Part shown: in pieces, positions 25,977-40,647 of the stretch
Numbering within the stretch: position 1 is the stretch's first letter
Layout of the letters: each line of letters begins with the position of its first letter
DNA from: Saccharothrix deserti
GTDB taxonomy: Bacteria > Actinomycetota > Actinomycetes > Mycobacteriales > Pseudonocardiaceae
Length of the DNA stretch: 64,000 bases
Assembly (NCBI RefSeq): GCF_009769385.1
Contig: NZ_VKAB01000018.1
Span: 186,001-250,000 of the forward strand
Direction of reading: 5' to 3'
Position numbers and translations under genes: made by a program
Notes under the pieces: model-generated
Told to the model about the DNA's origin: nothing
Database searches by the model: none
What the model saw: only the letters and a program-made list of their open reading frames with translations

Positions 25977-26008
25977 ACCGAAGATCACCCAATCAGGCGA
26001 TCTTCGGT
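25977..26008. terminator. Bidirectional hairpin terminator
   Basis: A 10-bp perfect stem (ACCGAAGATC with its complement) and a 12-base loop between the convergent ends of the small acidic gene and the TIMP-like gene. Confidence 0.75.
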
Positions 26009-26033
26009 GCACGAACGTTGGAACGTTTGCCAC

Positions 26034-26519
26034 TTACGGTGCGGCGGTTGCGCAGGGCGTGGTGGGCGGGGTCGTGGTGGTCGTCGGCACGGTGGTCACC
26101 GGCGGGCCGGACGCGGCCGGCCGGGTGCCGCTGCACAGGTGCGACTCCACCCGGCGGTCGGCCGAGTCGCCGTGCGCGAACACGACGTACTCGGTGCCTG
26201 GGTACAGCCGGATACCGCACAGCCCGCCGCTGGTCGACGTGATGACGTTCACCCAGCGCGGCACGTCGCCCTTGTACTCGGTGTGGACGGCGACGGCGTA
26301 CCGGTACTTGTCGTCGTGCGGCGACGCGGGGTCGCCCGCCTCCACCGCCTCGCTGATCACGACCCCGGAGAACACGTGCGCCGCCCGCTGGTAGCGCTCA
26401 CCCTCCGTGCTGGGCACGCAGCTGCACGCGCTGGCCGGGCTGGTGAACACGGCGGTGAGCAGAGCGGCGGTGACGGTGACGACACCGGCCGCATGCACTA
26501 AGAATCGTAGGCGCGCCAA
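26034..26519 (-). CDS. Secreted NTR/TIMP-like protein
   Basis: 161 residues. Signal peptide, then a mature N-terminus at ACSCV, the Cys-x-Cys start typical of tissue-inhibitor-of-metalloproteinase (NTR) folds. Strands contain VFSGVVISEAVEAG and YAVAVHTEYKGD, and further cysteines sit in GGLCGIRL and ESHLCSG. The C-terminus is Thr/Pro-rich. The TTG at 26519 has GGGGGA upstream; a GTG seven codons later is an alternative. Bacterial relatives are of unknown target; protease inhibition is only suggested by fold. Confidence 0.7.
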   Translation of the reverse strand: MARLRFLVHAAGVVTVTAALLTAVFTSPASACSCVPSTEGERYQRAAHVFSGVVISEAVEAGDPASPHDDKYRYAVAVHTEYKGDVPRWVNVITSTSGGLCGIRLYPGTEYVVFAHGDSADRRVESHLCSGTRPAASGPPVTTVPTTTTTPPTTPCATAAP

Positions 26520-26656
26520 GGAATCCCCCTAGTGGACAGGGAACGGCGGCGGTGCCTGCCCAGCGTACGGTCGGACGTGCGGGGCCGGCCAGAGCGCGCA
26601 CGCCTGCGGAATCCGACGAACGCCCAACGGCCAGCCCGGCGGCCAGGCCTTGGACA

Positions 26657-26666
26657 TTGTGTACAA
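26657..26666. promoter_or_regulatory. Possible GntR/FadR-type operator half-site pair
   Basis: TTGTGTACAA matches the loose TnGTnnACnA pattern of FadR-subfamily GntR operators, 131 bases before the aldehyde dehydrogenase start. No GntR gene is in the window, so this is a weak call. Confidence 0.2.
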
Positions 26667-26796
26667 CCTGCAAAAACCATTCGCCGGATTGGACACTGTC
26701 TTCCCCCTACCGCCCGGTCGATGCTCTGACCATGCCCGCCTTCACCGGCCACGTCGAGCCGGCCGAGGGCCGGGACGTGCCGGAAGGAGCGCCCAA

Positions 26797-28227
26797 GTGA
26801 CGACGACGCCGTACTGGGTCGCGGGACAGCCCGCGACCAGCGAGGACCTGGTCGAGATCCGCACCCCGCACGACGGCGCCCTGGCCGGCCGCACGTCCAA
26901 CGCCACCGCCGAGGACGTGGAACGGGCCGTCGCCGCCGCGCACGCCGTCGCCGGGGACTTCGCCGACCTGCCCGCACACGCCCGCGCAACGGCGCTGGAC
27001 CACGTGTCACGGCGGCTGGCCGAACGGGCCGACGAGGTCGCCGCGCTCATCACGGCCGAGTCCGGCAAGCCGGTGAAGTGGTCGCGGATCGAGGTGACCC
27101 GCGCGGTGTCGACGTTCCGGTGGGCGGCCGAGGAGGCACGCCGGTTCTCCGGTGAACTCCAGCGGCTCGACACCGACCCGGCCGCGAACGGCAGGCTGGC
27201 GTTGGTGCGGCGGGCGCCACGCGGCCCGGTGCTGGGCATCGCGCCGTTCAACTTCCCGCTGAACCTGGTGGCGCACAAGGTCGCGCCCGCGTTGGCGGTC
27301 GGCGCGCCGATCGTGGTCAAGCCCGCGCCGGCGACACCGCTGGTGGCGCTGCTCCTGGGTGAGCTGCTCGCGGAAACCGACCTGCCCGCCGGGTCGTGGT
27401 CGGTGCTGCCGGTGCCGAACGAGGTGGCGGGCGGCCTGGCCGAGGACCCCCGGCTGCCGGTGGTGTCGTTCACCGGTTCGGGTCCGGTGGGCTACTCGAT
27501 CCTGGACCGCGTGCCGCGCAAGCACGTCGTGCTGGAGCTGGGCGGCAACGCGGCGGCCGTCGTCTGTCCTGATTGGACGGACCTGGACCGGGCCGCGCAG
27601 CGGATCGCCACGTTCTCGATGTACCAGGGCGGGCAGTCGTGCATCTCGGTGCAACGCGTGTACGCCCACGAGGACGTGTACCCGGCGTTGGCCGAAGCCG
27701 TGGTGGCGCACGTGCGCAAGCTCGGCACCGGCGACCCGACCGACCCGGCCACCGACGTCGGCCCGCTGATCAACGAGGCCGCCGCGCGGCGCGTCGAGAC
27801 GTGGGTGGACGAGGCCGTGGCGGCGGGCGCGCGGCTGCTGACCGGCGGCCGGCGCGAAGGCGCGACCTACGAGCCGACCGTGCTGGCCGACGTGCCCGCG
27901 GACTGCAAGGTGGTGGACGAGGAGGTGTTCGGCCCGGTCGTGGTGCTGGACTCCGTGCCGTCGGTCGAGGAGGCGTTCGACCGGGTCAACGCGTCCCGGT
28001 TCGGTTTGCAGGCGGGCCTGTTCACGCACGACGTCCGGTTGGCGTTCCGGGCCGCCAAGCGCCTGGCGGTCGGCGGGGTGATCGTGGGCGACGTGCCGAG
28101 CTTCCGCGCCGACCAGATGCCCTACGGCGGGGTCAAGGAGTCGGGCACCGGCCGCGAAGGGGTGCGCGCGGCCATGGAGGACCTGACCGAGCAGCGGGTT
28201 CTGGTCCTCACCGACCTGGAGCTGTAG
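26797..28227 (+). CDS. NAD(P)-dependent aldehyde dehydrogenase
   Basis: 476 residues from GTG 26797, with GGAAGGAG upstream. ALDH fold: APFNFPLNLVAHKVAPALA with the nucleotide-binding Lys in IVVKPAPATPL, SFTGSGPVGYSI, catalytic Glu in VLELGGNAAAVV, and catalytic Cys in YQGGQSCISVQRV. Length typical. Closest in motif style to succinate-semialdehyde or lactaldehyde dehydrogenases; substrate unresolved. The longer frame from 26650 lacks a ribosome site. Confidence 0.92.
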   Translation: MTTTPYWVAGQPATSEDLVEIRTPHDGALAGRTSNATAEDVERAVAAAHAVAGDFADLPAHARATALDHVSRRLAERADEVAALITAESGKPVKWSRIEVTRAVSTFRWAAEEARRFSGELQRLDTDPAANGRLALVRRAPRGPVLGIAPFNFPLNLVAHKVAPALAVGAPIVVKPAPATPLVALLLGELLAETDLPAGSWSVLPVPNEVAGGLAEDPRLPVVSFTGSGPVGYSILDRVPRKHVVLELGGNAAAVVCPDWTDLDRAAQRIATFSMYQGGQSCISVQRVYAHEDVYPALAEAVVAHVRKLGTGDPTDPATDVGPLINEAAARRVETWVDEAVAAGARLLTGGRREGATYEPTVLADVPADCKVVDEEVFGPVVVLDSVPSVEEAFDRVNASRFGLQAGLFTHDVRLAFRAAKRLAVGGVIVGDVPSFRADQMPYGGVKESGTGREGVRAAMEDLTEQRVLVLTDLEL

Positions 28228-28265
28228 ATCTTGACGCCCGGCGGCGGCGTCCGCATCCTCGTGGC

Positions 28266-28349
28266 ATGCCGGTCACGATCCGGGACGTCGCCCGCCGGGC
28301 GCGGGTGTCGGTCCTCAAGGTGCGTTCGACCACCGCACCGCCGGGATGA
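28266..28349 (+). pseudogene. N-terminal stump of a LacI-family regulator
   Basis: 27 codons beginning MPVTIRDVARRARVSVLKVR, which matches the first helix-turn-helix of LacI regulators (VTIRDVARRAGVS...), then an out-of-family tail and a TGA. Everything after the HTH helix is missing. Its stop overlaps the next ATG (ATGA at 28346-28349), so the stump may be translated as a leader coupled to the EAD2 gene. It marks the left border of the conflict-type cassette. Confidence 0.7.
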
Positions 28350-29083
28350 CCGTGCACGCCGTCCTCGCGATCGCCGCCGACCCGGCCGCGGCCCTCGACG
28401 CCGCACGGCGGCTGGTGCGGGCCGCCCTGAACGATCCCGCCCTGAACGACCCTCAACTGGACGATCCGGCCCGCACCACCGACCACGACGCCGTGCTCCT
28501 GACGCACCCGCCGTCGCACCGCTTCCCCGTGCGGCTCACCGAAGCCGTCCACCGGCACAACGACTCGGTCGCGGCACCGATCCGGTTACGAGTGGTCATG
28601 GCCGGCGAGGTCGTCGAGGCCCTGGCCGTGCTCGACTCGGACGCCCTCCGCTCCGCGCACGCGGCGTCCAGCCGGCCGGTCACGATCGCGGTGACGGACA
28701 GCTACCTCCGCGATCAGCCGATCGCCGATCCCGACCGTCACCGGGCCGTCGGAGTGCCCGGCCTGGCGGAGCCGGTCTGGCTGCTCGACGCCCGCGTGCC
28801 GGACGTGGAAGCCCTGTTCCACGCGCTGATGGCGGTGCCGTCGATGCGGACCGAGGGCGACCGCCGACTGGTGCTGGGCCTGTTGCCGCCCGCCATCGCC
28901 GCCGCCGTGCCGCATCACCCGATCGCCGCACTGCACGTGAGCGGGCTGCTCCAGACGTGCATCGAGCACGAGCACGGCTTGAACGCCCTGCGGCACGCTT
29001 TGCACGTCGTGGAAGGTGAGGATTCCACACCAATGCGACGATTCGACACTCTTTTGAGCACGGAATCCAACCTCGAGGAGTGA
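28346..29083 (+). CDS. EAD2 protein with degenerate nucleotidyl-cyclase-like domain
   Basis: 245 residues. Residues about 160-240 fit effector-associated domain 2 (VPSMRTEGDRRLVLGLLPPA, then HHPIAALHVSGLLQTCIEH). Residues 1-150 resemble the inactive cyclase-homology domains often fused to EADs (RLTEAVHRHNDS, IRLRVVMAGEVVEAL, PVTIAVTDSYLRDQ), without metal-binding aspartates in the usual places. In the EAD scheme this domain recruits an effector or adaptor to a central protein carrying the same EAD. The VMAP protein 89 bases downstream has an EAD2 at its N-terminus, so the two are expected to interact. The assignment is by eye. Confidence 0.6.
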   Translation: MTVHAVLAIAADPAAALDAARRLVRAALNDPALNDPQLDDPARTTDHDAVLLTHPPSHRFPVRLTEAVHRHNDSVAAPIRLRVVMAGEVVEALAVLDSDALRSAHAASSRPVTIAVTDSYLRDQPIADPDRHRAVGVPGLAEPVWLLDARVPDVEALFHALMAVPSMRTEGDRRLVLGLLPPAIAAAVPHHPIAALHVSGLLQTCIEHEHGLNALRHALHVVEGEDSTPMRRFDTLLSTESNLEE

Positions 29084-29171
29084 GCGGAAATCCGTAACGT
29101 GGAGCCCGGAATAGAGCGATGCTGAAAGGAGTTGGACACTGGGCGCAGACCGCTCGAACGGGGGACCACCG

Positions 29172-30672
29172 ATGGTCCATGCGGACGACAACGGCGGCCG
29201 AGGGTTGCTCATTCCCCTTGTCGACGTGTTGAGCCGCGTGCCGACCCTGACCGATCGCGCCGGTCGGAACCTGGTCATCCGGATGATGTCCGCAGAATTG
29301 CGGGAAACTCTCGTGGTCGAGGAGCACCCGACCACGACCGGACACCTGTTCAGCCTGGCCGAAGTGTGCCAGCAGAGCCCTGAACGATTATCGGCACTGG
29401 TCAGGATCGTGAGTCGGTTCGAGCAGGGCTCGCGGGCGATGGTTGAATTGCGCCGGGTCATCGCCGAACTGACGCCGTTGGACCTGTTCCCGACATCCGA
29501 ACGAGCAAGGCTGTTCACGTTGCTGGCTGGCGTAGTCGTGCCCGACATCGCGGACATCTACCGCGTCGTCGCCGGCCCGACCGCTCCCGGCCTGTTCGGG
29601 CCGACCACCTACTTCGAGGTGTTCCGGGTGCTGGAGACGATGAACGCCAGGCCGGACGGCGTGCCGCGCCCGCTGGTGTTCGTGGAGCACATCGCGGCAC
29701 GGGTGCGCACCGAGTTGGCCATCGAGCTGCACCGGTGGAACGAGGCGCAGGCCAGGTCGATGAACCTCCTGGACGAACTGGCCGCCATCCGGAAGGACCT
29801 GCGGCCGGAGACCGCGCAGCCGCTCACCCCGTCGCCGGGCTCGCCCGCCTACCTCGTGCTGCTGCTGCGCCGGGAAGGGCCGACCGGCGAGAAGTTCCGG
29901 CTGTCGCACTGGCGCCAGCTCGGCCACCCCCACCCCGTGGTCCCCGCTGCACGGCGAGGACGCGGTCGGCACGCTCGACGAGGTGAAGGAGCAGGTGGCC
30001 GCGCTCATCGAGAAGGTCGAGGACGACTGGGCGCGGTACAGCCCGGACATCCGGATCGAGTTCGTGCTCGACTACGAGAACCTGAACCTCGACGTCGACC
30101 AGTGGCCGTGGGAGAACGACGCGTTCCTGGCGCAGCCGATGGGCTGCCGGTACCCGGTGGTGGTGCGCAGCCTGGAGCGGATGACGATGCGCAAGTACCA
30201 CCGCGAGTGGCTGCAGCGGTGGGACGCGATGACCGACCAGCTCGGCCGCGCGGGCGGCCTCGCGCACACGGCCGCCTGCCGCGCCACGAGCGGGACCGAA
30301 CAGGGCCTGCGCGAGCTGCAGACGCGGTTCAACCGGGAACGCGGGCTGGTGTCGCTGGTGCTGAGCGCGCCGCCGCGGCCGGAGACCGCCGGGCGGGACG
30401 AGATCACGGCCGGGATGAAGGCCGGCGTTCCACTGATCGTGTGGCACCGGCACGACTGCGGCAGCACCGAGTTCACCGACGTGGTGGAGTCCGTGTTGCA
30501 CGGTCAGGACGAGCTGCACCTGTTGGAGCGCGTCCGCATGGCCCGGACCACGGCGTTCGCGGAAGGCCCCGCGCGGCGCCACGTCGGCGAGGCGCTGACG
30601 ATCCTCTACGACGACCCGACGCGGCTCGTCGTGCCCAGCCAACCGGGGCCCCCGGAAGGGATCGCGGTCTGA
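29172..30672 (+). CDS. VMAP (vWA-MoxR-associated) protein, apparent frameshift
   Basis: Two abutting frames make one protein: 29172 to about 29930 in one frame, then +1 to the TGA at 30670-30672. Removing one C from the CCCCC run at 29927-29931 gives a continuous 499-residue protein reading RQLGHPTPWSPLHGED across the join. Residues about 8-90 are an EAD2, then a VMAP middle region (FPTSERARLFTLLAGVVVPD ... GPTTYFEVFRVLETM), and a VMAP C-terminal domain (DIRIEFVLDYENLNLDVDQW ... GVPLIVWHRHDC). It would be the scaffold between MoxR and the vWA-type protein. The stop shares one base with the moxR start. Sequencing error, real inactivation or slippage cannot be separated here. Confidence 0.75.
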
Positions 30673-31682
30673 TGAGCGACGGCCAAGTTCACTCCGGCAA
30701 CGTCTACCACGGCACGGGCGACGTCGCGCAGACGTCCGTCGCGGACCTGCCCCCTCCCCCGCCGTGGCGGACGTTCACCGGTCGCGGGGCCACGTCCCGG
30801 CCCGCCGACGACGGCGGCGAGGGCGACCGGCGGGTGGGCGGTGTGCGCGCGGTCCGCCGGACACCGCACCCGAACGAGGTCGCGATGGTCAACGCGGCCA
30901 TCCGGTTGCGCCGTCCGCTGCTGGTCACCGGCGCGCCCGGCACCGGGAAGTCGTCGTTGGCCTACCTGGTGGCGCGGGAACTCGGCCTGGGGCCGGTGCT
31001 GCGGTGGCCGATCACCAGCCGGACCACGCTCAAGGACGGCCTCTACCTGTACGACGCGATCGCGCGGGTGCAGGCGGTGGGCGCGAACGACCCCGATTCG
31101 GGTATCGGGGACTACATCCACCTCGGGCCGTTGGGCACCGCGTTGCTGCCCTACGACCTGCCGCGCGTGCTGCTGATCGACGAGTTGGACAAGGGTGACA
31201 TCGACCTGCCCAACGACCTGCTGAACACGTTCGAGGAAGGCGAGTACGAGATACCGGAGCTGGTCCGGTACGCCAAGCACCGGGCCGAGGTCGAGGTGCT
31301 GACCGCCGACCGCGGCCACACCGCGACCGTGCAGCACGGGATCGTGCGGTGCCGCGAGTTCCCGGTCGTGATCATCACCAGCAACGGCGAGCGCGAGTTC
31401 CCGCCCGCGTTCCTGCGCCGCTGCCTGCGGCTGCACGTCCGGCAGCCGGGCCGGGAGCAGCTGGGCGAGATGGTGGCGGTGCACTTCGGCGACGCGCACG
31501 GCGTGGACGTGGCCCGGCTCATCGCGGACTTCCTGGCCCACCGGTCCGATGTCGGCACGGTGTCCGCCGACCAGTTGCTCAACGCGGTGCACCTGGCCAC
31601 GTCCGGCGCGTACCAGCCGGACGAGGACTGGGCCGAACTGCTCAAGGCGATCTGGCACCCGCTGTCCGCGGAGGCCGGATGA
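30672..31682 (+). CDS. MoxR-type AAA+ ATPase of the vWA-MoxR-VMAP system
   Basis: 336 residues from ATG 30672, sharing its first base with the VMAP stop. A Pro-rich leader of about 60 residues, Walker A GAPGTGKSS at about residues 87-95, Walker B VLLIDELDKGD at about 164, sensor 1 in FPVVIITSNGEREFPPAFLRR with an arginine-finger candidate. MoxR ATPases remodel vWA partners; here the partner is the next gene, whose start overlaps its stop by four bases. Complete coupling of three genes supports one complex. Confidence 0.88.
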   Translation: MSDGQVHSGNVYHGTGDVAQTSVADLPPPPPWRTFTGRGATSRPADDGGEGDRRVGGVRAVRRTPHPNEVAMVNAAIRLRRPLLVTGAPGTGKSSLAYLVARELGLGPVLRWPITSRTTLKDGLYLYDAIARVQAVGANDPDSGIGDYIHLGPLGTALLPYDLPRVLLIDELDKGDIDLPNDLLNTFEEGEYEIPELVRYAKHRAEVEVLTADRGHTATVQHGIVRCREFPVVIITSNGEREFPPAFLRRCLRLHVRQPGREQLGEMVAVHFGDAHGVDVARLIADFLAHRSDVGTVSADQLLNAVHLATSGAYQPDEDWAELLKAIWHPLSAEAG

Positions 31683-34600
31683 CCGGACCGCGGGCCGAGC
31701 CGCCGGCGGGCGAGGTGCTGCTGCAGCACCTCGACGCGACCGACAGCCGGGTGGAGGTGCTGCGCACGGCGGACCTGACCTTGCGCGAGGTCCGGGACTC
31801 GCTGTGGCTCGCCGGCGCACTGCGCCCACCCGCACCCGAGCCCGCGGCACCGGCACCCGAAGCGGAGGCCGGTGTCCCGCGTGACGTCGGAACACCTCCT
31901 CCGCCACCGGAAGAGCCGGTCGGGGAGGGAACCGGGAGCCTGGAACCGACGCCGGAGCCCGAACCCGAGCCGGACCCGGACTTCGACCCGGACCTGGCCG
32001 AGATCCAGCGGTGGACGCCGACCCCGACGACGATGGCGCGTGCCGATCCCGTGCTCGCCGTGAACGGCACGGTCAGCGCGGTGTCCGCGTGGCCGACCGT
32101 GCCCGCGCTGCCGGAACGGCGCGGGATCAGCCGCGCGCTGCGGCCGTTGGCGCGCAGGCAGCCTTCGCGCCGGCGCAAGGCGTTGGACGAGGAGGCGACC
32201 GCGGTGCGGGCCGCCCGGGACGGGCTGTGGCTGCCGGAGTGGCGGGCCGCGCCGTGGCGGCGGTTCGAGGTGGCGCTGGTGGTCGACACGACCGTGGCGG
32301 CCGAGATCTGGCAGCAGACCGTGCGCGAGTTCCGGGTGCTGCTGGAACGGCAGGGCGCGTTCCGGGACGTGCGGACCTACGTGCTGGACAGCTCCTGCCC
32401 GACCCCGGACGACGTGACGCTGCGGTCCGAGGGCGGTGCGGAGCACGAGTGGCGTTACCTGGTCGAGCCCGCGGGCACCCGGATCGTGCTGGTGCTCACC
32501 GACACCATCGGCCGGGCCTGGCACAGCGGCGCGGTCGGCCACGTGCTGCACCACTGGGGCCGTTCGATGCCCGTCGCCGTCGTGCAGACGCTGGCGCAGC
32601 GCCTGTGGTCGTGGGGCGGCCTGCCGGCCCGCCGGATGAGGCTGTCCGCGCCCACGCCGGGCGCGCCGAACCGGCAGCTGCGCGTCGCGGGCGCGACGGA
32701 CGGGGACGGGATGGCCGTGCCCGTGCTGGGTCTGTCCGCCGAGTGGATGGCCGGCTGGGCCCGGCTGCTCACCGCGCCCGGCTCGGAGTGGGTGGAGACG
32801 ACGGCCGCGCTCGTCACGCCCCAGAGCACGCCCCCGGCGCGACCGGCGGACGAGGAGCCGTTGACCGCGGCCGAACGCGTGCTGCGGTTCCGCACCTACG
32901 CGTCGGTGGACGGGTTCCAGCTCGCGGGCCTGCTCGCCGCGACACCGTTGAGCCCTCAGCTGATGGGCCTGGTGCAGCGGGTGCTGCTGCCCGGCTCGGA
33001 CCTCTCGGCGTTGGCCGAGGTGATGCTCGGCGGCCTGATGACGCGGCTGCCCGGCGCGGACGGCGCGACCGACGCCGTGGCGTACGACTTCGACACCGGG
33101 ATCAGGGAAGAGCTGCTGGCCACGTCCCGCCGTTCGGACACCGCGCGGGTGGCGCGCGTGCTGGACGAGTACGCGGGCGCGGACAACGAGGCGCTGCGGA
33201 ACTTCCGGCTGGCGCTCGACGACCCCGACCGGACGGGCGAGCTCGACCCGTCCCCCGAGAACCTGCCCTACCTCAAGGTCCAGGAGGCCGTGTTCCGCGC
33301 CCTCTCCGGACCGTATTCCCGAAGGTCGCAGCGCATTCGACGCTCCCTCGGCCCGGACGACCGGACCCGCGTGCCCCTCGACGGCGGGAGTCCGGACGGC
33401 ACACCGAAGGAGAACAGCGCTGTGACGAACACCGACACCCGACCCCGTGCGCCAGAGGTCGGGCCGCCGCCGCCCGAAGGAGACGAAGTGAACGCTCCCG
33501 GTATCCCCCTGTTCACCGGCGAGCGGCAGCCGGGTTCCACACAGCCGCTGGTGTGGGGCCACGTGCCGTTGCGCAACCCGGACTTCGTCGGCCGCGGCGA
33601 ACTCCTGGAGCAGCTGCGCCTGCGGTTGAGCGAGGCGGGACCGACCGCCGTGCTCCCGGAGGCGCTGCACGGCATGGGCGGCGTCGGCAAGTCGCAGACC
33701 GTGGTCGAGTACATCCACCGGCACGCCTCCGAGTACGAGGTGGTGTGGTGGATCCCGGCCGAGCAGCCCGCGCAGATCAAGTCGAGTTTCGTGGAGCTGG
33801 CGAAGAAGATCGGCGTCGCCGCCGCGGGTTCCGCCGAGACCGCCGTGCCCGCCGTGCTCGAAGCGCTGCGCCGGGGTGAGCCCTACCAGCGGTGGATCCT
33901 GGTGTTCGACAACGCCGACCGCCCGCAGGACGTGCGGCAGTACTTCCCCGCCGGGCGCGGCCACATCGTCGTCACGTCCCGCAACTCCGAGTGGGGCGGT
34001 TTCGCCCGGCCGGTCGCGGTCGACCTGTTCACCCGCGAGGAGAGCATCGAGTTGCTGCACCGCCGTGGCGGCGACCTGGACGACGCCGAGGCCGACGCGT
34101 TGGCCGAAGCCCTGGGCGACCTGCCGCTGGCCGTCGAGCAGGCCGCCGCGTGGCGGGCGCAGACCGGTATGCAGGTGTCGGAGTACCTGCAACTGCTGGA
34201 GCAGAACCGCACCGAACTGCTGGAGGCGGGCACTTCCAGCGAGGACCAGCTGCCGGTGGCGGCGGCGTGGAACGTGCCGCTCAACCGGTTGAAGAACGAC
34301 CACCGGGCGGCGCTCCAGCTGCTGCAGGTGTGCGCGTTCTTCGGGCCGGAGCCCATCTCGCAGAAGCTGTTCCGCGGTGTGCGGGACATGCCCGTGCCGG
34401 AAGCGCTGCGCGACGCGCTGAGCGACCCGATCAAGCTGAGCCGGGCGATCCGGGAGATCAGCCGGTACAGCCTCGCCAAGATCGACCACCGCAACAACGC
34501 GCTGCAACTGCACCGGTTGGTGCAGACGGTGCTGAAGAACCGGCTGGACCAGGAAGAGCAGGACCGGATGCGGCACGCGGTGCACGTGCTGCTGGTGAAC

Positions 34601-36022
34601 GGCGACCCGGGCGATCCCGACGCGTCCGCGAACTGGTCGCACTACGCCGAACTGCTGCCGCACGCCCTGGTGTCGCGGGTGGTGGACTGCCAGGACCGGT
34701 GGGTGCGGGTGCTGGTCATGAACCTGGTGCGGTACCTGCTCAACGCGGGCGACTTCGGCGGCGCCCGCGACCTGGCGGCGCAGGCCTCGGAATCGTGGCG
34801 GAAGTCGTTGGGCGAACGGGATTTCGACACGTTGGAGGTCACCCGGCGGTACGGCATCTCCCTGCGCAGGCTGGGGCGCAGCGAAGAGGCGCAGAGCCTC
34901 AACGAACGGACCTACCAGCTGTTCCGGGAAGTGGTCGGCGAGAACCACGAGAGCATGTTGAACATGCTCGACACCCTCGCGCTGGACCGGCGCGCGCAGG
35001 GGCAGTTCGTCGAGGAGAACGAGATGCGCCAACAGGTGTACGACCGGGCGGTCGAGATCCTGGGCGACGACGACCCGGAAACCCTGCGGTACGCCAACAA
35101 CCTGGCCGGGTCGTTGCGGCTGATGGGCGACTACCGCCGGGCGCACGCGATCGACGAGGAGACGTTGCGCAGGCGGAACGTGGTCCTCGGCGTGGACCAC
35201 CCGCTCACCCTCGGCTCGAACAACAGCATCTGCATGGACATCCGGGAGATGGGGCACTACGCCGAGGCGGCGCGGCAGCAGGAGGAAGTGCTGATCCTGC
35301 AACGCGAACTGTTCGGCGACGACCACCCGCAGGTGATCGGCGCGACGCGGAACCTGTCGGTCGCGCTGCGCAAGGCGGGCGAGCACGTGCGGGCCAAGGA
35401 GCTGTCCGAGGACTGCATCGCGCGCTACCGCAGGCGGCACGGCGAGGAGCACACCGACACCATCACGTCGCGGATGAACCTGGCCACCGACCTGCGGCAC
35501 CTCGGTGACCTGGACCGCTCCCTCGACCTCGCGCGGAGCAGTTACCAGACGTTCCTGCGCGTCGAGGGCGCCGACCACCCGTACACGCTCATCGCCGGGA
35601 TCAACCTGGCGGTGACGCACCGGCTGCGCGACGAGGCCGACGCCGCGCTGGCGCTCGACCGCGAGCTGCACGCCAAGCTGACCGAGGTCTTCGACGCCGA
35701 CCACCCGTTCACCCTGGTCGCGGCGACGAACCTGGCCAGCGACCTGGCGGCGACCGGTGACCACGCCGGGGCCAGGGCGTTGGACGAGGACACCCTCGAA
35801 CGGTCGACCAGGGTGCTCGGGCCGGAGCACCCGTCGACGCTGGCGGTGGCCCTGAACCTCGCGATCGACCTGGGCGACGTCGGTGACGAGAACGCGTCGG
35901 CGGTGCTGCACGCCCGGACGGTGGCGAGTTTCCGCAAGGTCCTGGGCGACGAGCACCCGGCGACGATCGCGGCCACCCAGTTCGTGCGCGCGAACTGCGA
36001 CACCGACACGATGCAGTTCTGA
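31679..36022 (+). CDS. FxsT-type STAND protein: SAV_2336/vWA-like + NB-ARC + TPR
   Basis: 1447 residues from ATG 31679 (ATGA overlap with moxR). Residues 1-150 are a short helix and a Glu/Pro-rich linker. Residues about 150-570 are an SAV_2336-type domain with a vWA-like core (RFEVALVVDTTVAAEIWQQ; the MIDAS D-x-S-x-S is degenerate, D-T-T-V-A). From about 640 an NB-ARC NTPase: P-loop HGMGGVGKSQ (about 664-672), kinase-2 WILVFDNADR, HIVVTSRNSEWGG, and LGDLPLAVEQAAAW. From about 1020 to the end lie roughly ten 42-residue TPR units with DHP-TL-NLA repeats. This matches the FxSxx-COOH system tetratricopeptide-repeat proteins. As a STAND NTPase it would oligomerise on a trigger and signal through the vWA/MoxR/VMAP partners. 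Confidence 0.88.
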   Translation: MTGPRAEPPAGEVLLQHLDATDSRVEVLRTADLTLREVRDSLWLAGALRPPAPEPAAPAPEAEAGVPRDVGTPPPPPEEPVGEGTGSLEPTPEPEPEPDPDFDPDLAEIQRWTPTPTTMARADPVLAVNGTVSAVSAWPTVPALPERRGISRALRPLARRQPSRRRKALDEEATAVRAARDGLWLPEWRAAPWRRFEVALVVDTTVAAEIWQQTVREFRVLLERQGAFRDVRTYVLDSSCPTPDDVTLRSEGGAEHEWRYLVEPAGTRIVLVLTDTIGRAWHSGAVGHVLHHWGRSMPVAVVQTLAQRLWSWGGLPARRMRLSAPTPGAPNRQLRVAGATDGDGMAVPVLGLSAEWMAGWARLLTAPGSEWVETTAALVTPQSTPPARPADEEPLTAAERVLRFRTYASVDGFQLAGLLAATPLSPQLMGLVQRVLLPGSDLSALAEVMLGGLMTRLPGADGATDAVAYDFDTGIREELLATSRRSDTARVARVLDEYAGADNEALRNFRLALDDPDRTGELDPSPENLPYLKVQEAVFRALSGPYSRRSQRIRRSLGPDDRTRVPLDGGSPDGTPKENSAVTNTDTRPRAPEVGPPPPEGDEVNAPGIPLFTGERQPGSTQPLVWGHVPLRNPDFVGRGELLEQLRLRLSEAGPTAVLPEALHGMGGVGKSQTVVEYIHRHASEYEVVWWIPAEQPAQIKSSFVELAKKIGVAAAGSAETAVPAVLEALRRGEPYQRWILVFDNADRPQDVRQYFPAGRGHIVVTSRNSEWGGFARPVAVDLFTREESIELLHRRGGDLDDAEADALAEALGDLPLAVEQAAAWRAQTGMQVSEYLQLLEQNRTELLEAGTSSEDQLPVAAAWNVPLNRLKNDHRAALQLLQVCAFFGPEPISQKLFRGVRDMPVPEALRDALSDPIKLSRAIREISRYSLAKIDHRNNALQLHRLVQTVLKNRLDQEEQDRMRHAVHVLLVNGDPGDPDASANWSHYAELLPHALVSRVVDCQDRWVRVLVMNLVRYLLNAGDFGGARDLAAQASESWRKSLGERDFDTLEVTRRYGISLRRLGRSEEAQSLNERTYQLFREVVGENHESMLNMLDTLALDRRAQGQFVEENEMRQQVYDRAVEILGDDDPETLRYANNLAGSLRLMGDYRRAHAIDEETLRRRNVVLGVDHPLTLGSNNSICMDIREMGHYAEAARQQEEVLILQRELFGDDHPQVIGATRNLSVALRKAGEHVRAKELSEDCIARYRRRHGEEHTDTITSRMNLATDLRHLGDLDRSLDLARSSYQTFLRVEGADHPYTLIAGINLAVTHRLRDEADAALALDRELHAKLTEVFDADHPFTLVAATNLASDLAATGDHAGARALDEDTLERSTRVLGPEHPSTLAVALNLAIDLGDVGDENASAVLHARTVASFRKVLGDEHPATIAATQFVRANCDTDTMQF
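33477..33490 (+). promoter_or_regulatory. Internal ribosome site and in-frame GTG inside the FxsT-type gene
   Basis: AAGGAG (33477-33482), five bases, then GTG 33488 in frame (codon 604). A second one, AAGGAG (33407-33412) nine bases before GTG 33422 (codon 582), precedes it. Both fall exactly in the linker between the vWA-like and NB-ARC domains, so a separate NB-ARC-TPR protein of about 844 residues could be made, or the gene is a fusion that kept the old start. Confidence 0.5.
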
Positions 36023-36053
36023 CGCTGTGACGCTCTGACGCGGTCGGCGCCGT

Positions 36054-37802
36054 CTACCGGACGCCGGTGGAGTCGGCTCGGTCGAACCAGGCCACCAGCT
36101 CCACCGGCGGCGGCGCGACACCGGTCCGCGCCGCCACGCCGTGGTGCACCGCCCGCACCAGCTCGGGAACGCGCCGCATCACTGCGGAATCCAGCGCGAG
36201 CCCCAAGCCTGCCCACGCGGCGAGGTCGTGCGGCGCGTCGTGCAGCCTCGCGGCATAGCCATCGGCGGCCACCTCACGTTCGCCGCGCAGGTAGGCGAAG
36301 TCCGGCCCTTCCCGGTACGGCACCCGGTCGAACTCGCGCGGATCCAGCACGCGCAGCTTGAGCAGGGCCGCGAGCAGCGACTCACCCGAACCCGTCGTCG
36401 GCACCACCGAGCCGCGACCTCTTTCACCGGCGTCACCGGCGTACGGGTGCCGGTCCGGCCACGCCGCGACCACGTCCCCGACCACCCGCGGATCGGGGCG
36501 GACGTGCCGCAACCGCCAGGTGATCGCGTGTTCGGCGATGATCTCCTCGGCGGCGGAAGCCATTTCAGGTGCCACGTCAGCCGGGTCGCACGCCGCCAGC
36601 CGCACGGCCACCGACGCGACGAACTCGCGCCCCAGATCGGTGAGGTCGACCAGGCCGCGCACGCCGTCCACGGCGATACCGACCTGACGGGCCCGGTAGG
36701 CGAGGTTGAACTCGGCACGGCGGGCCAGGGCGGCGGGCACGAGACCGCGCTGGGCGTGCCAGAACTCCACCACGCTGACGAAGGCGTACACGCCGTGCAG
36801 CAGCCCGTCGACGGGCCGGGGGTCGTCCCGCCACGGCGCGTAGTGCCGCGGCTCGCCGTCAGCGGTGTGCAGGTCGACCAGGTCGAGCAGCGCGTTGACC
36901 TTGGAGTGCTGCAACTCGTGCACGAGCGCTTCGCCGAACTCCGTCGCGGACCGCTTCGGCGACATGGCGATCGCCCCGAACGCCGCCGCCGAGGACGCCG
37001 CGAACACATCGCGCCGCGCGTCCAACGGCACCACGGTCGACAACCCGGCCGACAGCTCCTCCGCCGGGCCGGGGTGCCGCGCGGTCAACAGCTCCCACGC
37101 CTCGTCGAGGAGTTTGCGCCACTCGTCCCACTCGCTGTCGCTCAGCGGATCCGGCGGCACCGGCCCGGTGAACTCGCGGTACGGCCCGAGGTCGTCCACC
37201 ACCACGTCGACCGTCCGTCCCCGCGCCGAACCGCGGTGCCGCCGGACGGGCTGCCACTCGACGGGCCCCGGCACCTCGACCGTCGTCCCGGACGCCGAGT
37301 TGACCAGCCGCGCCTGCCCCACCGGGAAACGCCCGGACAACCGGTACGCGCCCACCGTCGGCAACGTCACCGCACCGTGCACGACCGGCACGGTGACCGC
37401 ACACGGGTGTCCACTTCGGACTGCAGCCGCGGCGGCGACGGCGTGGAACCAGCCGACCTCCGACCACAACGGGGTGGCGTCGCCCGCGGTTCCCAGCACC
37501 TGGCGCAGCGCGCGGCTCAACCAGACGCCCACCGAGTGGTGCATCAGGACGTCTTCCACCACTTCCGGCGCGACCCGTTCCACTTCCGCCAACAATGTCC
37601 ACGTCCGGTCCAGGTCCGCGAACGGACCGAGCCGTGCGGTGACCGGAGAAGCGGCCTCCAGGAAAGCGCGCAAGCGGAGCCTGCGGACGCTGTACTGGGT
37701 TCTCCGCAAAATTGCCATCCCGACTGCGGACACCGACCCCGAGCAGATCTCCTCGAACACGAAGCGCGGCAAGCGGTGCGTACGCAGCTCGAGCGCGTTC
37801 AC
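36054..37802 (-). CDS. HExxH-motif peptide hydroxylase-type protein
   Basis: 582 residues from GTG 37802, five bases after the precursor-peptide stop. Central motif HELQH in ALVHELQHSKVNALLDLVDL (about residues 295-299), followed by WRDDPRPVDGLLHGVYAFVS, as in the HExxH domain that is C-terminal to, or stands beside, FxsB-type radical SAM maturases. Recent family annotation treats these as 2-oxoglutarate-dependent peptide beta-hydroxylases rather than proteases. No CxxxCxxC radical SAM motif is present in this protein or anywhere in the window. Its natural substrate would be the adjacent FxsA-like peptide. It converges on the FxsT-type gene with a 31-base gap. Confidence 0.82.
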   Translation of the reverse strand: MNALELRTHRLPRFVFEEICSGSVSAVGMAILRRTQYSVRRLRLRAFLEAASPVTARLGPFADLDRTWTLLAEVERVAPEVVEDVLMHHSVGVWLSRALRQVLGTAGDATPLWSEVGWFHAVAAAAAVRSGHPCAVTVPVVHGAVTLPTVGAYRLSGRFPVGQARLVNSASGTTVEVPGPVEWQPVRRHRGSARGRTVDVVVDDLGPYREFTGPVPPDPLSDSEWDEWRKLLDEAWELLTARHPGPAEELSAGLSTVVPLDARRDVFAASSAAAFGAIAMSPKRSATEFGEALVHELQHSKVNALLDLVDLHTADGEPRHYAPWRDDPRPVDGLLHGVYAFVSVVEFWHAQRGLVPAALARRAEFNLAYRARQVGIAVDGVRGLVDLTDLGREFVASVAVRLAACDPADVAPEMASAAEEIIAEHAITWRLRHVRPDPRVVGDVVAAWPDRHPYAGDAGERGRGSVVPTTGSGESLLAALLKLRVLDPREFDRVPYREGPDFAYLRGEREVAADGYAARLHDAPHDLAAWAGLGLALDSAVMRRVPELVRAVHHGVAARTGVAPPPVELVAWFDRADSTGVR

Positions 37803-37807
37803 CCCGG

Positions 37808-37990
37808 CTACCCGCTGTTCTGGGACTGGGTTTGGACCGAATCACCGAAGTCCCCCGACCGGAACCGGTCGAGCGTGCGGTGAACGGCCTGGTCCAGCAC
37901 GGTGCTGCGCAGCGTTCTCATCTCGGACAACGACGTCGAGGTCAGATCCAACAAGTCCGAGGACAGTTCTTCCGGTGTTTCCACGGTCAT
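37808..37990 (-). CDS. FxsA-like precursor peptide lacking the FxSxx C-terminus
   Basis: 60 residues from ATG 37990 with GGGAGG seven bases upstream. The leader-like segment SSDLLDLTSTSLSEMRTLRS followed by TVLDQAVHRTLDRF matches the N-terminal pattern of FxsA peptides (SDLPDLSG..LTELRALDD..L..AL.R.L). The C-terminus, SGDFGDSVQTQSQNSG, has no aromatic-x-Ser-x-x end. It is co-transcribed with the HExxH enzyme (five-base gap). Asp, Asn or Phe residues of the last 17 positions are candidate modification sites; this is inference. Confidence 0.72.
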   Translation of the reverse strand: MTVETPEELSSDLLDLTSTSLSEMRTLRSTVLDQAVHRTLDRFRSGDFGDSVQTQSQNSG

Positions 37991-38332
37991 AAGGCCGCCT
38001 CCCGATACCGCCCGATTCCATCATGCACGAACACGCACATGTCCGGGAGCGCCCAGCCGGATAATCCGCCAACGGCCGTCAGGTCTACGACGAACGGCCC
38101 CGCTTCCGCCGCCTCCCGCGGTAAACCCGTCCTGCAGCCGCACGGCGGACTCGCTGCGGCACACCTGCCCTTGCCGACCCGTGCGGGTATTCCCGGACGA
38201 CGCCGGCCTGACCGCCGGGACACACCCTCGGCCGGGCAGCCGTCCGTTGCGGCTCGACACGAGGTCCTGCACGCTACGGTCGCCGTTCGTGGACATCGCG
38301 GACATCGTTGGGTTGGCAGTGTGCGGAGCGCA
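37991..38332. other. Divergent intergenic region, precursor peptide / SLOG gene
   Basis: 342 bases without a credible gene between divergent starts. It must hold promoters for both directions; I see no confident -35/-10 pair. A lower-GC patch (GATTCCATCATGCACGAACA, 38015-38034) upstream of the peptide start is the best promoter candidate. Confidence 0.4.
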
Positions 38333-38959
38333 GTGAGGGTCACGTCGAAGGCGGAGCTGGGCGGAGCGGGTCTGCCGCTGGGCCGGCCGGTGCTGGTGCT
38401 GGTCGGCGGTGCCGACGGGATGGACCGGGCCGGCCTGGAGTCGTTGGAACTGGTGCTGCGCGACCTGGTGCCGCTGCTGGACGAGTGCGGCGCCGTGGTG
38501 GTCGACGGCGGCACGGACACCGGCGTGATGCGGGCCGTCGGGCGGGCGCGGGCGGCGGCGGGTGGTCGGTTCCCGTTGATCGGGGTGGCCGCCGAGGTCG
38601 CCGTCGACGTGGCCGCGTTCGAGCCGAACCACACGCACCTGGTGCTGGTGCCCGGTGGGACGTGGGGTGACGAGTCGCCGTGGCTCGCCGACGTGGCGGA
38701 CGTGGTGGCCGGGTCGCAGCCCTCGCTGACCGTGCTGGTGAACGGGGGCGCGATCACGTTCGACGACGCCGAGCACAGCCTGGGCCGCAACCGGCCGCTG
38801 GTGGTGCTGCGCGGCAGCGGGCGCACCGCGGACGCCATCGCCGGGAGCGTCGACGAGCGGTCCACCGCGATCGCCGACTCGCCGCTGACCACCGTGCTGG
38901 GTGCCGAGGAGCTGCGTGCGCACGTCGAACGCGCGTTCCGGCCGGAAGGGGACGGATGA
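38333..38959 (+). CDS. SLOG-superfamily (LSDAT/TRPM-like) putative nucleotide sensor
   Basis: 208 residues from GTG 38333 (GGAG four bases upstream; GTG 38321 is an alternative). A Rossmann-like order: VLVLVGGADGMDRAGLESLE, then CGAVVVDGGTDTGVMRAVG, FPLIGVA, and HLVLVPGGTWGDESPWL, the Gly-rich nucleotide-contact loops of LSDAT/SLOG domains. Relatives bind NAD- or ADP-ribose-derived ligands or cytokinin-type nucleotides and serve as sensors in conflict systems. It diverges from the FxsA-like peptide, so it may belong to the same island; that link is only positional. Confidence 0.72.
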   Translation: MRVTSKAELGGAGLPLGRPVLVLVGGADGMDRAGLESLELVLRDLVPLLDECGAVVVDGGTDTGVMRAVGRARAAAGGRFPLIGVAAEVAVDVAAFEPNHTHLVLVPGGTWGDESPWLADVADVVAGSQPSLTVLVNGGAITFDDAEHSLGRNRPLVVLRGSGRTADAIAGSVDERSTAIADSPLTTVLGAEELRAHVERAFRPEGDG

Positions 38960-39005
38960 CCGCGACCGGCCGGTTCAGGTGTTGTCACCGGGCAATCACG
39001 GAGAG

Positions 39006-39021
39006 TATGGTCTAGACCTGC
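39006..39021 (+). promoter_or_regulatory. DasR-type operator (dre-like)
   Basis: TATGGTCTAGACCTGC holds the core TGGTCTAGACC, differing from the known palindrome TGGTCTAGACCA in one position. It lies 94 bases before the chitin-active LPMO start. In actinomycetes DasR controls chitin and N-acetylglucosamine genes through this site. Confidence 0.7.
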
Positions 39022-39114
39022 CGCCGCGTTTGGGTGAACGCCTGTTTCCCCCACGCGCACTCGGGTTGGCGTTCGCCACAAGCGTTTCCGCCCATCCCGA
39101 CCAGAGGAGTCCCC

Positions 39115-39630
39115 ATGTCACTCCGCCGAAGGATCGCCGCGGTGGCGGCAGGCGTTCTCGCCGCGCCACTCGTGACGGTCGCCCTGCCATCGGCGCCCGC
39201 TTTCGCCCATGGGTACGTGTCGTCACCGCCCAGCCGCCAAGCCCAGTGCGCCCGCAACCAGGTGTCCTGCGGTGACATCAAGTACGAGCCGCAGAGCGTC
39301 GAGGGCCCGAAGGGCCTGCGCAGCTGCAACGGCGGCGTCGCCCGGTTCGCCGAGCTGAACAACAACAACAAGGGCTGGAAGGTCGCGAACACCGGCCGGA
39401 CCGTCACGTTCAACTGGACCTTCACCGCACGGCACCGCACCGCCAACTACGAGTACTACGTGGGCGGCCGGCGGGTCGGCTTCTTCGACGGCGGCAACCA
39501 GCAGCCCCCGGCCACCGTGTCGCACACGGTGAACCTGGGCGCCTCCGGCCGCCAGACGGTGCTCGCCATCTGGAACATCGGCGACACGTCGAACGCGTTC
39601 TACGCCTGCATCGACGTGAACGCGAGCTGA
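39115..39630 (+). CDS. AA10 lytic polysaccharide monooxygenase (chitin-binding type)
   Basis: 171 residues from ATG 39115, with AGAGGAG upstream. Signal peptide to residue 31, then mature His32 in HGYVSSPPSRQAQC, the copper-brace histidine. The second histidine is His107 in WTFTARHRTANYEYY. Four cysteines and the C-terminal NAFYACIDVN match small single-domain AA10 enzymes that oxidatively cleave chitin outside the cell. The dre-like site at 39006 suggests DasR repression relieved by glucosamine phosphates. Confidence 0.92.
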   Translation: MSLRRRIAAVAAGVLAAPLVTVALPSAPAFAHGYVSSPPSRQAQCARNQVSCGDIKYEPQSVEGPKGLRSCNGGVARFAELNNNNKGWKVANTGRTVTFNWTFTARHRTANYEYYVGGRRVGFFDGGNQQPPATVSHTVNLGASGRQTVLAIWNIGDTSNAFYACIDVNAS

Positions 39631-39673
39631 CCAAAAGCGGGGCGTGCCCACCGCACGCCCCACCCACCGCACG

Positions 39674-39913
39674 CGAGAGTCGAACCCTCAAGTCCCGAGA
39701 GTCGAACACTCAAACCGCGAGAGTCCTACGTTCAGGTTGCGTGAGTCCTACGTTCAGAACAGGTGAGTTCAACACTCAGAACGTGCGGACGCCCAGTCCG
39801 AGCGAACCTGAGCGTTGAACTCGGGGGCCCTGAACGTAGGACTCACGCGCTCTGAACGTAGGACTCTCGCGGTCTGAACGTAGGACTCTCGGGGTCTGGA
39901 GGTTCGACCTCGG
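39674..39913. repeat. Inverted 5+5 array of the 22-bp intergenic repeat
   Basis: Five units run left to right at 39674, 39696, 39718, 39740 and 39762, then five in the opposite orientation at 39804-39913, with a 20-bp centre. The core is GAGTCCTACGTTCAG. The array fills the gap between two convergent genes and ends five bases before the SDR stop codon. Transcripts from either side would fold into a very long hairpin, so it can act as a two-way terminator. Confidence 0.85.
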
Positions 39914-39918
39914 GTGGG

Positions 39919-40647
39919 TCAGGCGGTGAAGCCGCCGTCTACGTGCAGCTGAGCGCCCGTCACGTACCGGGCCTCGTCCGACGCCAGGAACGCGACCGCC
40001 GCGGCGACCTCGTGAGGCTCCGCGTAACGCCCGACCGCCGTGAAGCCGCGCACCACGTCGGCGCCCGGCCCGTCCGCCGGGTTCAGGTCGGTGTCGGTCG
40101 CGCCGGGGTGCACGAGGTTCACCGTGATCCCCCGCGGCCCCAACTCCCGCGCCAACGCCTTCGTCAACCCCACCAACGCGGCCTTGCTCGCGGCGTACAG
40201 CGAAAACCCGGGGAACACCGCGCGCTCGGCGACGTTGCTGCCGATCCCGATGATCCGCCCACCGTCCCCGAGGTGCGGCAGCGCCGCCTTCACCGCCAGG
40301 AACGCCCCGCGCACGTTCACGTCGAACGTCCGGTCGAACTCCGCCACCCCCAGGTCCTCCACGGGCGCGATGATGAACGCCCCGGCGTTGTTGACCAGCA
40401 CGTCCAACCGCCCCAACACCGCCACGGTCTCCTCGACCGCCGCGCCAACGGCCTCCGCGTCACCGCTGTCCGCCTGAACGGCGACCACCCGCCGCCCGAG
40501 CCCCTTCACCCGGTCGACCACGTCACCCGCACCGCTCTGGTACGTGATCGCGACATCCGCGCCCAACTCCGCCAACCGCACCGCGATCGCGGCCCCGATA
40601 CCCCTGCTGCCACCCGTGACGAGGGCGACCTTGCCTTCGAGATCCAT
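39919..40647 (-). CDS. Short-chain dehydrogenase/reductase (3-oxoacyl-ACP reductase-like)
   Basis: 242 residues. TGGSRGIGAAIAVRL, NNAGAFIIAPVEDLG, GIGSNVAERAVFPGFSLYAASK with the Tyr/Lys pair, and the C-terminal FLASDEARYVTGAQLHVDGG that marks FabG-like SDRs. Substrate unknown. Monocistronic, closed by the 22-bp repeat array. Confidence 0.92.
   Translation of the reverse strand: MDLEGKVALVTGGSRGIGAAIAVRLAELGADVAITYQSGAGDVVDRVKGLGRRVVAVQADSGDAEAVGAAVEETVAVLGRLDVLVNNAGAFIIAPVEDLGVAEFDRTFDVNVRGAFLAVKAALPHLGDGGRIIGIGSNVAERAVFPGFSLYAASKAALVGLTKALARELGPRGITVNLVHPGATDTDLNPADGPGADVVRGFTAVGRYAEPHEVAAAVAFLASDEARYVTGAQLHVDGGFTA

Follow-up and report, generated by a model that had tools for sequence, protein, structure and literature searches.

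A 64,000-nucleotide stretch of the genome of Saccharothrix deserti, a soil actinobacterium (contig NZ_VKAB01000018.1, positions 186,001 to 250,000), called the window here, carries an island in which a conflict-type VMAP system lies beside genes for a small peptide and an HExxH enzyme. The genome is a draft assembly of 162 contigs. Six genes form the whole content of the island, whose features are as follows (positions are those of the window).

28,250-38,332, no strand assigned: the island, 10,083 bp, missing at the ALDH/SLOG junction of eight related genomes.
28,346-29,083, plus strand: EAD2 partner protein with a degenerate class III cyclase-like N-terminus and a C-terminal EAD2 (28,820-29,056; PF19956, 70.4 bits).
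29,172-30,672, plus strand: VMAP, with EAD2 (29,220-29,465), VMAP-M0 and VMAP-C; its frame is broken near 29,933.
30,672-31,682, plus strand: MoxR-type AAA ATPase (AAA_5, 28.2 bits; AAA, 27.6 bits; slightly above cut-off).
31,679-36,022, plus strand: protein with a SAV_2336 N-terminal segment (presumed vWA component), NB-ARC and TPR (NF041121 SAV_2336_NTERM, 393.6 bits; NF040586 FxSxx_TPR, 900.3 bits).
36,054-37,802, minus strand: putative alpha-ketoglutarate (alpha-KG)-HExxH-type peptide beta-hydroxylase, HELQH at residues 295-299 (TIGR04267, 159.3 bits, cut-off 40).
37,808-37,990, minus strand: precursor-like peptide of 60 amino acids, with core VQTQ at residues 52-55 (37,826-37,837; TIGR04268, 22.1 bits, below the cut-off of 28).

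The first-pass annotation had described four linked plus-strand genes, the last three overlapping by 1-4 bases, for an EAD2 protein, a VMAP scaffold, a MoxR ATPase and a vWA-like/NB-ARC/TPR protein. The reported overlaps are there, measuring 1 and 4 bases, and profile scans upheld the domain calls, but VMAP occupies two reading frames rather than a single open one. EAD2, VMAP-M0 (110.1 bits), VMAP-C (PF20028, 167.6 bits), SAV_2336 and HExxH domains are all confirmed, and the peptide falls below the threshold of TIGR04268. The EAD2 profile has four matches in the genome, and the domain does occur on the first protein and at the N-terminus of VMAP alike (70.4 and 75.1 bits). The best NCBIfam match of the ATPase is MadB_ATPase (54.8 bits, far under its cut-off of 475). 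Pfam finds NB-ARC, TPR_10 and TPR_12 on the largest protein, and no Pfam vWA match on it at E<=1; we take its SAV_2336_NTERM segment to be the vWA component. The domain scans support a conflict-type VMAP system with EAD2 on two proteins and a linked peptide/HExxH pair. Judged by its sequence, the island is a VMAP-ternary (MoxR/vWA-component/VMAP) system in which NB-ARC and TPR sit directly on the presumed vWA component, tail to tail with a peptide/HExxH operon.

Both minus-strand genes had been predicted earlier. The enzyme is confirmed by its TIGR04267 score and intact HELQH; the peptide is precursor-like as proposed, although its family match is only sub-threshold (22.1 of 28 bits). The peptide sequence is MTVETPEELSSDLLDLTSTSLSEMRTLRSTVLDQAVHRTLDRFRSGDFGDSVQTQSQNSG, with QNSG at its C-terminal end. 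It contains neither RxD nor a run of four acidic residues, and no hydrophobic signal sequence is seen by eye, no predictor having been run. We rejected the peptide as an FxSxx peptide, given its score below 28 bits and an internal FRSGD that is not C-terminal and is absent from relatives such as L090 and L049. Related peptides share a common leader and have clade-wise tails, among them GGERID, SGYNPQRLD, SISGYNGS, AGWNSAM, SWTV and FESSL.

The AF2 model of the enzyme (mean pLDDT 85.4) includes a helical C-terminal part beyond the catalytic domain. Foldseek matches the model to SjiH (22ob, E 1.6e-19, TMt 0.83) and ChlH (8s5f, TMt 0.64-0.72), the same two proteins that are found with phmmer from the sequence, and the NCBIfam name of TIGR04267 is now beta-hydroxylase. 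According to the article text, alpha-KG-HExxH enzymes hydroxylate His, Asp, Phe, Gln and Pro (PMC13060819), and the text of a second article reports that PflC and PosC hydroxylate consecutive Gln residues (PMC12636437). Sequence and model suggest that the window enzyme probably hydroxylates its small peptide neighbor.

Enzyme and peptide were compared among relatives. Matches at E<=1e-60 occur in 117 of 390 genomes of the family. Forty regions were first taken from the matches listed, followed by 32 HExxH regions, mostly the best-scoring, from more than 150; G497 (50% identity, at a contig edge) and most matches under ~300 bits were left out. One tree comprises 69 rows (82 minus 13 near-copies), with ten peptide labels set by hand before the counts. 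A second tree of 77 enzymes combines the 46 of these 69 rows that score over 195 bits with 31 new rows, re-fetched copies of genomes already present being omitted. Although cores went into the peptide profile, it also found non-QxQ peptides.

In the 77-enzyme tree, 38 HExxH enzymes, which are the examined set and not a census, form one clade (SH-aLRT 100), and a peptide accompanies every one of them. Thirty-five of the 38 tails carry QxQ, comprising 34 with [VIL]QxQ and one with RQVQ. When the three VHER tails described below are left out, [VIL]QxQ occurs in 34 of 35 tails, versus a mean of 1.02 and a maximum of 5 in 2000 shuffles. HExxH (H295) is likewise intact in 35 of the 38 enzymes, and all 35 of these have a QxQ peptide. 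Two residues farther downstream, H336 and E346, mark the clade and are present in all 38, versus 10 and 9, respectively, of the 39 enzymes elsewhere in the tree.

The remaining three members (L050, L051 and L192) belong to one lineage and have the core VHER and, in place of HExxH, RERQH. Enzymes with Arg for H295 and peptides with VHER cores thus coincide exactly, in the same 3 of 38. In these genomes (G083, G150 and G347) an orphan enzyme and peptide stand alone between LPMO and ANTAR; NB-ARC, TPR, SAV_2336, MoxR and VMAP were not found within 9 kb of the enzyme in L050 and L051, nor seen in the 19.9 kb of L192. The three enzymes cluster (support 99) with that of L092 and with those of L091 (S. 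carnea) and the second copy in G354; in S. carnea and G354 a second system adjoins the first, between SDR and UDG/ANTAR. On their sequences, the three loci are apparently decayed copies, with both core Gln residues replaced and the enzyme open reading frame (ORF) still long and open.

The core genes are also retained. By enzyme, the closest named relatives are S. carnea, S. sp. NRRL B-16314 and S. tamanrassetensis. All 13 QxQ rows have NB-ARC, TPR, SAV_2336, MoxR, VMAP-C and EAD2 within 9 kb of the enzyme, consistent with the earlier expectation that homologous loci keep these genes together; the rows represent 11 loci, because the double loci L093 and L101 are counted twice with shared genes, and the EAD2 of VMAP itself is counted. 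FxsB lies within 9 kb in none of these 13 rows versus all six FxSxx rows, and VMAP-C in none of the six FxSxx rows and nine of ten RxD rows. GYN rows have VMAP-C and SAV_2336 in 9/9 and MoxR in only 2/9. L082 and L114, which belong to none of these four classes, have both FxsB and VMAP-C.

Two observations on gene arrangement may be added. Seven of the nine GYN-type loci have VMAP-C with SAV_2336/NB-ARC/TPR and no MoxR found (L052, L058, L060, L061, L066, L068 and L072 are the GYN-type loci listed). Tandem units of enzyme, peptide and SAV_2336/NB-ARC/TPR, each with its own QxQ peptide, occur in L093/L185, L101/L181 and L179, with a MoxR gene in each unit of L179.

Peptide classes follow the phylogeny of both neighboring proteins. 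Tail labels, with 'other' and 'unknown' included, require 17 changes on the 69-enzyme tree versus 46.8 when shuffled. The NB-ARC/TPR tree, which covers 62 of the 69 rows, requires 15 changes versus 41.8 for the same full set of labels, and QxQ occupies exactly one side of a 100% branch. The 25 genomes of the genus contain 25 NB-ARC/TPR matches scoring 600 bits or more, every one of them with an HExxH gene no farther than 10 kb away.

Beyond the finding that enzyme and peptide belong together, we infer the remainder of the mechanism, including hydroxylation, a ligand role for the peptide and a function in defense. Tentatively, and with slightly less than even confidence, we propose that the island is an intracellular VMAP-ternary conflict module whose own enzyme oxidizes the peptide, which works with the NB-ARC/TPR protein. 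The step in which we have most confidence is that the HExxH enzyme would oxidize the peptide encoded next to it. With less confidence, the site would be one or both Gln residues of [VIL]QxQ, through beta-hydroxylation or perhaps backbone cleavage like that of PflC/PosC; Gln is the predicted target because of the motif, its joint loss with the active-site His in the VHER/RExxH lineage, and the chemistry of PflC/PosC. Less confidently still, the peptide may stay in the cell, where it would serve the NB-ARC/TPR protein as ligand, guard or priming signal. It probably acts inside the cell, since the six genes take up the whole island and no transporter family is matched among them. Our least confident step is that VMAP/MoxR might sense an invader as a chaperone, with the EAD2 pair recruiting the catalytically degenerate cyclase-like partner, after which the NB-ARC/TPR protein might set off containment or cell death. 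A more specific version, which we consider unlikely, is that the NB-ARC/TPR protein resembles an NLR with a built-in ligand, a ribosomally synthesized and post-translationally modified peptide (RiPP), and that loss of [VIL]QxQ oxidation would release or trigger this receptor, as when an invader withdraws oxygen, iron or alpha-KG, or attacks the peptide.

Several observations weigh against the proposed module. The VHER/RExxH lineage is one evolutionary event, and near-copies and shared descent inflate the counts within the QxQ clade. The joint divergence of enzyme, peptide and NB-ARC/TPR protein may reflect nothing more than the common ancestry of linked genes. Two LQNQ tails (L190 and L197) occur in another enzyme clade, beside VLENN and VMENS relatives, and therefore QxQ is not strictly unique to the clade; these tails are perhaps a second origin of the QxQ class or an intermediate. 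In the genus, none of the three NB-ARC/TPR matches at 400-600 bits has an HExxH gene within 10 kb, and below 400 bits 21 of 37 do and 16 do not; conversely, of the 54 HExxH genes, 46 lie within 10 kb of an NB-ARC/TPR match (E<=1e-60) and eight do not. One of the three 400-600-bit matches belongs to a second VMAP/MoxR/SAV_2336-NB-ARC-TPR set in the S. deserti genome itself (contig C17, L016:2724-9651), near which an HExxH or peptide gene was not found, so the peptide arm is optional for NB-ARC/TPR proteins. PADLOC reports nothing in the island beyond weak AAA matches to the ATPase.

The broken frame of VMAP raises the possibility, which we think fairly unlikely, that the system in the window has recently become a pseudogene copy. 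EAD2 and VMAP-M0 lie in one frame and VMAP-C, on a second piece, in another. At 29,933 the window carries a base that is missing from both S. carnea and S. sp. NRRL B-16314 (L088, L089), two relatives in which all three domains lie within one ORF. The ratio of nonsynonymous to synonymous substitution rates (dN/dS) in the 5' and 3' halves is 0.32 and 0.27 versus S. carnea and 0.43 and 0.34 versus NRRL B-16314, and this constraint in both halves indicates either that the frame was lost recently or that the extra base is a sequencing error. Versus the more distant L090, the values are 0.42 and 0.73, and the latter is in keeping with decay. Against decay, the other five genes are open and the break sits in a C-rich stretch of the draft assembly. 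Programmed frameshifting was also considered, and is not supported because the nearest relatives carry one frame.

The extent of the island depends on its flanks, in which three further features were recognized.

38,333-38,959, plus strand: SLOG (LSDAT_prok, PF18171, 211 bits), prokaryotic TRPM-type, a resident flanking gene.
26,034-26,519: TIMP-like flanking protein (27.9 bits).
39,115-39,630: LPMO_10 flanking protein (83.2 bits).

The first-pass annotation counted SLOG among the island's components. Its domain assignment stands, but we excluded the gene from the system, because it lies beside the same ALDH neighbor in eight genomes that lack the island genes; the island is accordingly mapped to 28,250-38,332. 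These genomes (L160-L167) are eight of the nine with a close SLOG and without a QxQ-type HExxH match, G357 being left out, and no island gene, whether VMAP, MoxR, SAV_2336/NB-ARC, HExxH or another, was found intact in the 19.9 kb taken from each. Their gene order is ALDH, SLOG, LPMO and, mostly, then SDR, UDG and ANTAR; the TIMP-like and LPMO_10 genes are thus backbone and not island, since their homologs occur in the same order in most of these genomes. In flank comparisons by blastn, homology to the window stops at ~28,249 in L160 and at 28,221-28,252 in the other empty-site genomes, and restarts at 38,333 in L160, with gaps of 66-1290 bp in the eight genomes. Decayed remnants are present in two gaps, namely the peptide (46 aa, 46% identity) with 35 residues of the enzyme start in L166, and the peptide core (22 aa, 68%) in L161; the E-values apply to a search confined to these eight gaps. 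At least these two genomes therefore probably once had the island and lost it, and the eight empty sites fit repeated loss.

Sixteen of the 25 genus genomes have close SLOG homologs (57-100% identity), and eight more have distant ones only. Among island-bearing genomes, SLOG is reduced to fragments in L088 and L168, and none was found in L170. Of 23 distant SLOG genes in the genus (38-46% identity), 16 have an FxSxx-type NB-ARC/TPR gene no more than 12 kb away, for example the one at C24:63966 in the S. deserti genome itself. This association may count against the exclusion of SLOG, or may be plain synteny, given that the other seven lack such a neighbor. Direct repeats at the island ends are limited to 7-base matches, which were not compared with chance. 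A promoter and terminator scan gave 0 and 3 sites, the same as in shuffles; an Rfam search of 26,000-40,000 gave no matches, and the 64-kb window contains no tRNAs.

The EAD2 partner varies among loci. Its AF2 model (mean pLDDT 71) has class III cyclases as top Foldseek matches, the best being 4wp3 (E 8.5e-3, probability 0.97, low TM), with none at E<=0.001. The cyclase assignment rests on these weak matches and on an alignment, since no Pfam cyclase match was obtained with any of ten partner proteins scanned. In the alignment, the first-strand Asp, which we take to be a metal-binding Asp of the cyclases, is present in L092 and L095 and absent from the window partner, which is predicted to be catalytically dead. 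The same model also has weak matches to the Apaf-1 CARD (1cy5, E 1.4, TMt 0.52), perhaps through its EAD2 part, hinting that EAD2 (28,820-29,056) is death-fold-like. By eye, partners are cyclase-like in two QxQ-clade loci (L048 and L092) and in two that do not belong to it (L055 and L062), and caspase-like in L058 and L060, outside the clade. Pfam identifies PNP_UDP_1 in L067 and Trypsin_2 in L117, also outside the clade.

An alternative to defense is that the whole system regulates development or stress responses in filamentous actinobacteria. All named loci with the core system are actinobacterial, and NB-ARC/TPR proteins and MoxR/vWA chaperones could conceivably serve regulation. We nevertheless think a regulator improbable, as the patchy occupation of a single site, with remnants and repeated loss, the presence of second systems nearby, and the exchange of partner domains among related systems (PNP and trypsin identified with Pfam, cyclase-like and caspase-like ones by eye) all resemble conflict systems.

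For the enzyme itself, the article text of Kaur et al. 2020 (PMC7159879), in section 24, proposes a zinc metallopeptidase that frees a C-terminal toxin or signal peptide. The HExxH motif and zincin-like fold agree with a peptidase, which is nonetheless a rather poor candidate here, since the solved structures closest to the model, SjiH and ChlH, are members of the alpha-KG oxygenase family, TIGR04267 is named as a beta-hydroxylase, and the conserved QxQ together with characterized Gln hydroxylation better matches oxidation. We similarly doubt that the peptide leaves the cell as a RiPP natural product or kin signal, with the conflict genes as immunity or response genes. In favor of this reading, the leader-core layout is typical of RiPPs and HExxH enzymes are RiPP tailoring enzymes. 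Against it, the six island genes match no transporter or leader peptidase family, the peptide lacks a hydrophobic signal sequence recognizable by eye (no predictor was run), and in the three copies that stand without core genes the loss of the core Gln coincides with that of the active-site His.

VMAP-ternary systems are widespread predictions, and the literature surveyed, as far as its text goes, contains no experimental test of their mechanism. In this clade, a small, defined enzyme-peptide pair, a predicted site of two Gln residues and the VHER/RExxH lineage as a natural broken control allow direct tests of what the peptide arm does and of which reaction the supposed peptidase catalyzes.

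The closest known systems are those of Kaur et al. 2020 (PMC7159879), whose article text describes ~20% of actinobacterial VMAP systems as pairing a zincin-like enzyme with a small protein of the FxSxx, RxD or acidic type, or, in FtsH systems, an FtsH-associated type. An extra SPASM radical SAM gene accompanies the FxSxx type, and the RxD and acidic types consist of peptide, zincin-like enzyme and directly fused AP-ATPase/TPR, with no radical SAM. The earlier suggestion that the combination of genes without a radical SAM maturase or FxsC is new is therefore mistaken, as this text already gives that arrangement for the RxD and acidic types. The island shares with them MoxR, a presumed vWA component fused to AP-ATPase/TPR, VMAP with EAD, an adjacent EAD protein, an HExxH gene and a small, rapidly diverging protein, and on this shared architecture belongs to the VMAP kind described there. 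It differs in its [VIL]QxQ core, which fits none of the peptide types named there, a comparison made with the article text, whose source data may list QxQ under another heading, and in its enzyme, which current family knowledge makes better read as an oxygenase. The peptide class [VIL]QxQ appears to be the new element here, and QxQ peptides in VMAP loci are absent from the titles and abstracts surveyed.

With FxSxx-COOH systems (FxsA/FxsB/FxsC) the island shares a related peptide leader, the HExxH domain and an FxSxx_TPR protein. It differs in that its peptide lacks a C-terminal FxSxx and FxsB is absent within 9 kb; Pfam and NCBIfam scans gave no TIR family match among the six proteins, and no FxsC profile was searched. 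The genome's only FxsB above cut-off is on contig C24 and not on the island contig. The FxSxx cluster on C24 (L015) has FxsA over cut-off, FxsB (452 bits), HExxH and a MinD-like/NB-ARC/TPR protein.

Finally, the island enzyme shares its predicted fold and HExxH with SjiH (22ob) and ChlH (8s5f), and, as with the alpha-KG-HExxH hydroxylases SjiH, ChlH and PflC/PosC (the last likened by description, without sequence comparison), a leader-bearing peptide adjoins it. Unlike those hydroxylases, it lies in a conflict-type locus with no other tailoring enzyme and bears a helical C-terminal part.

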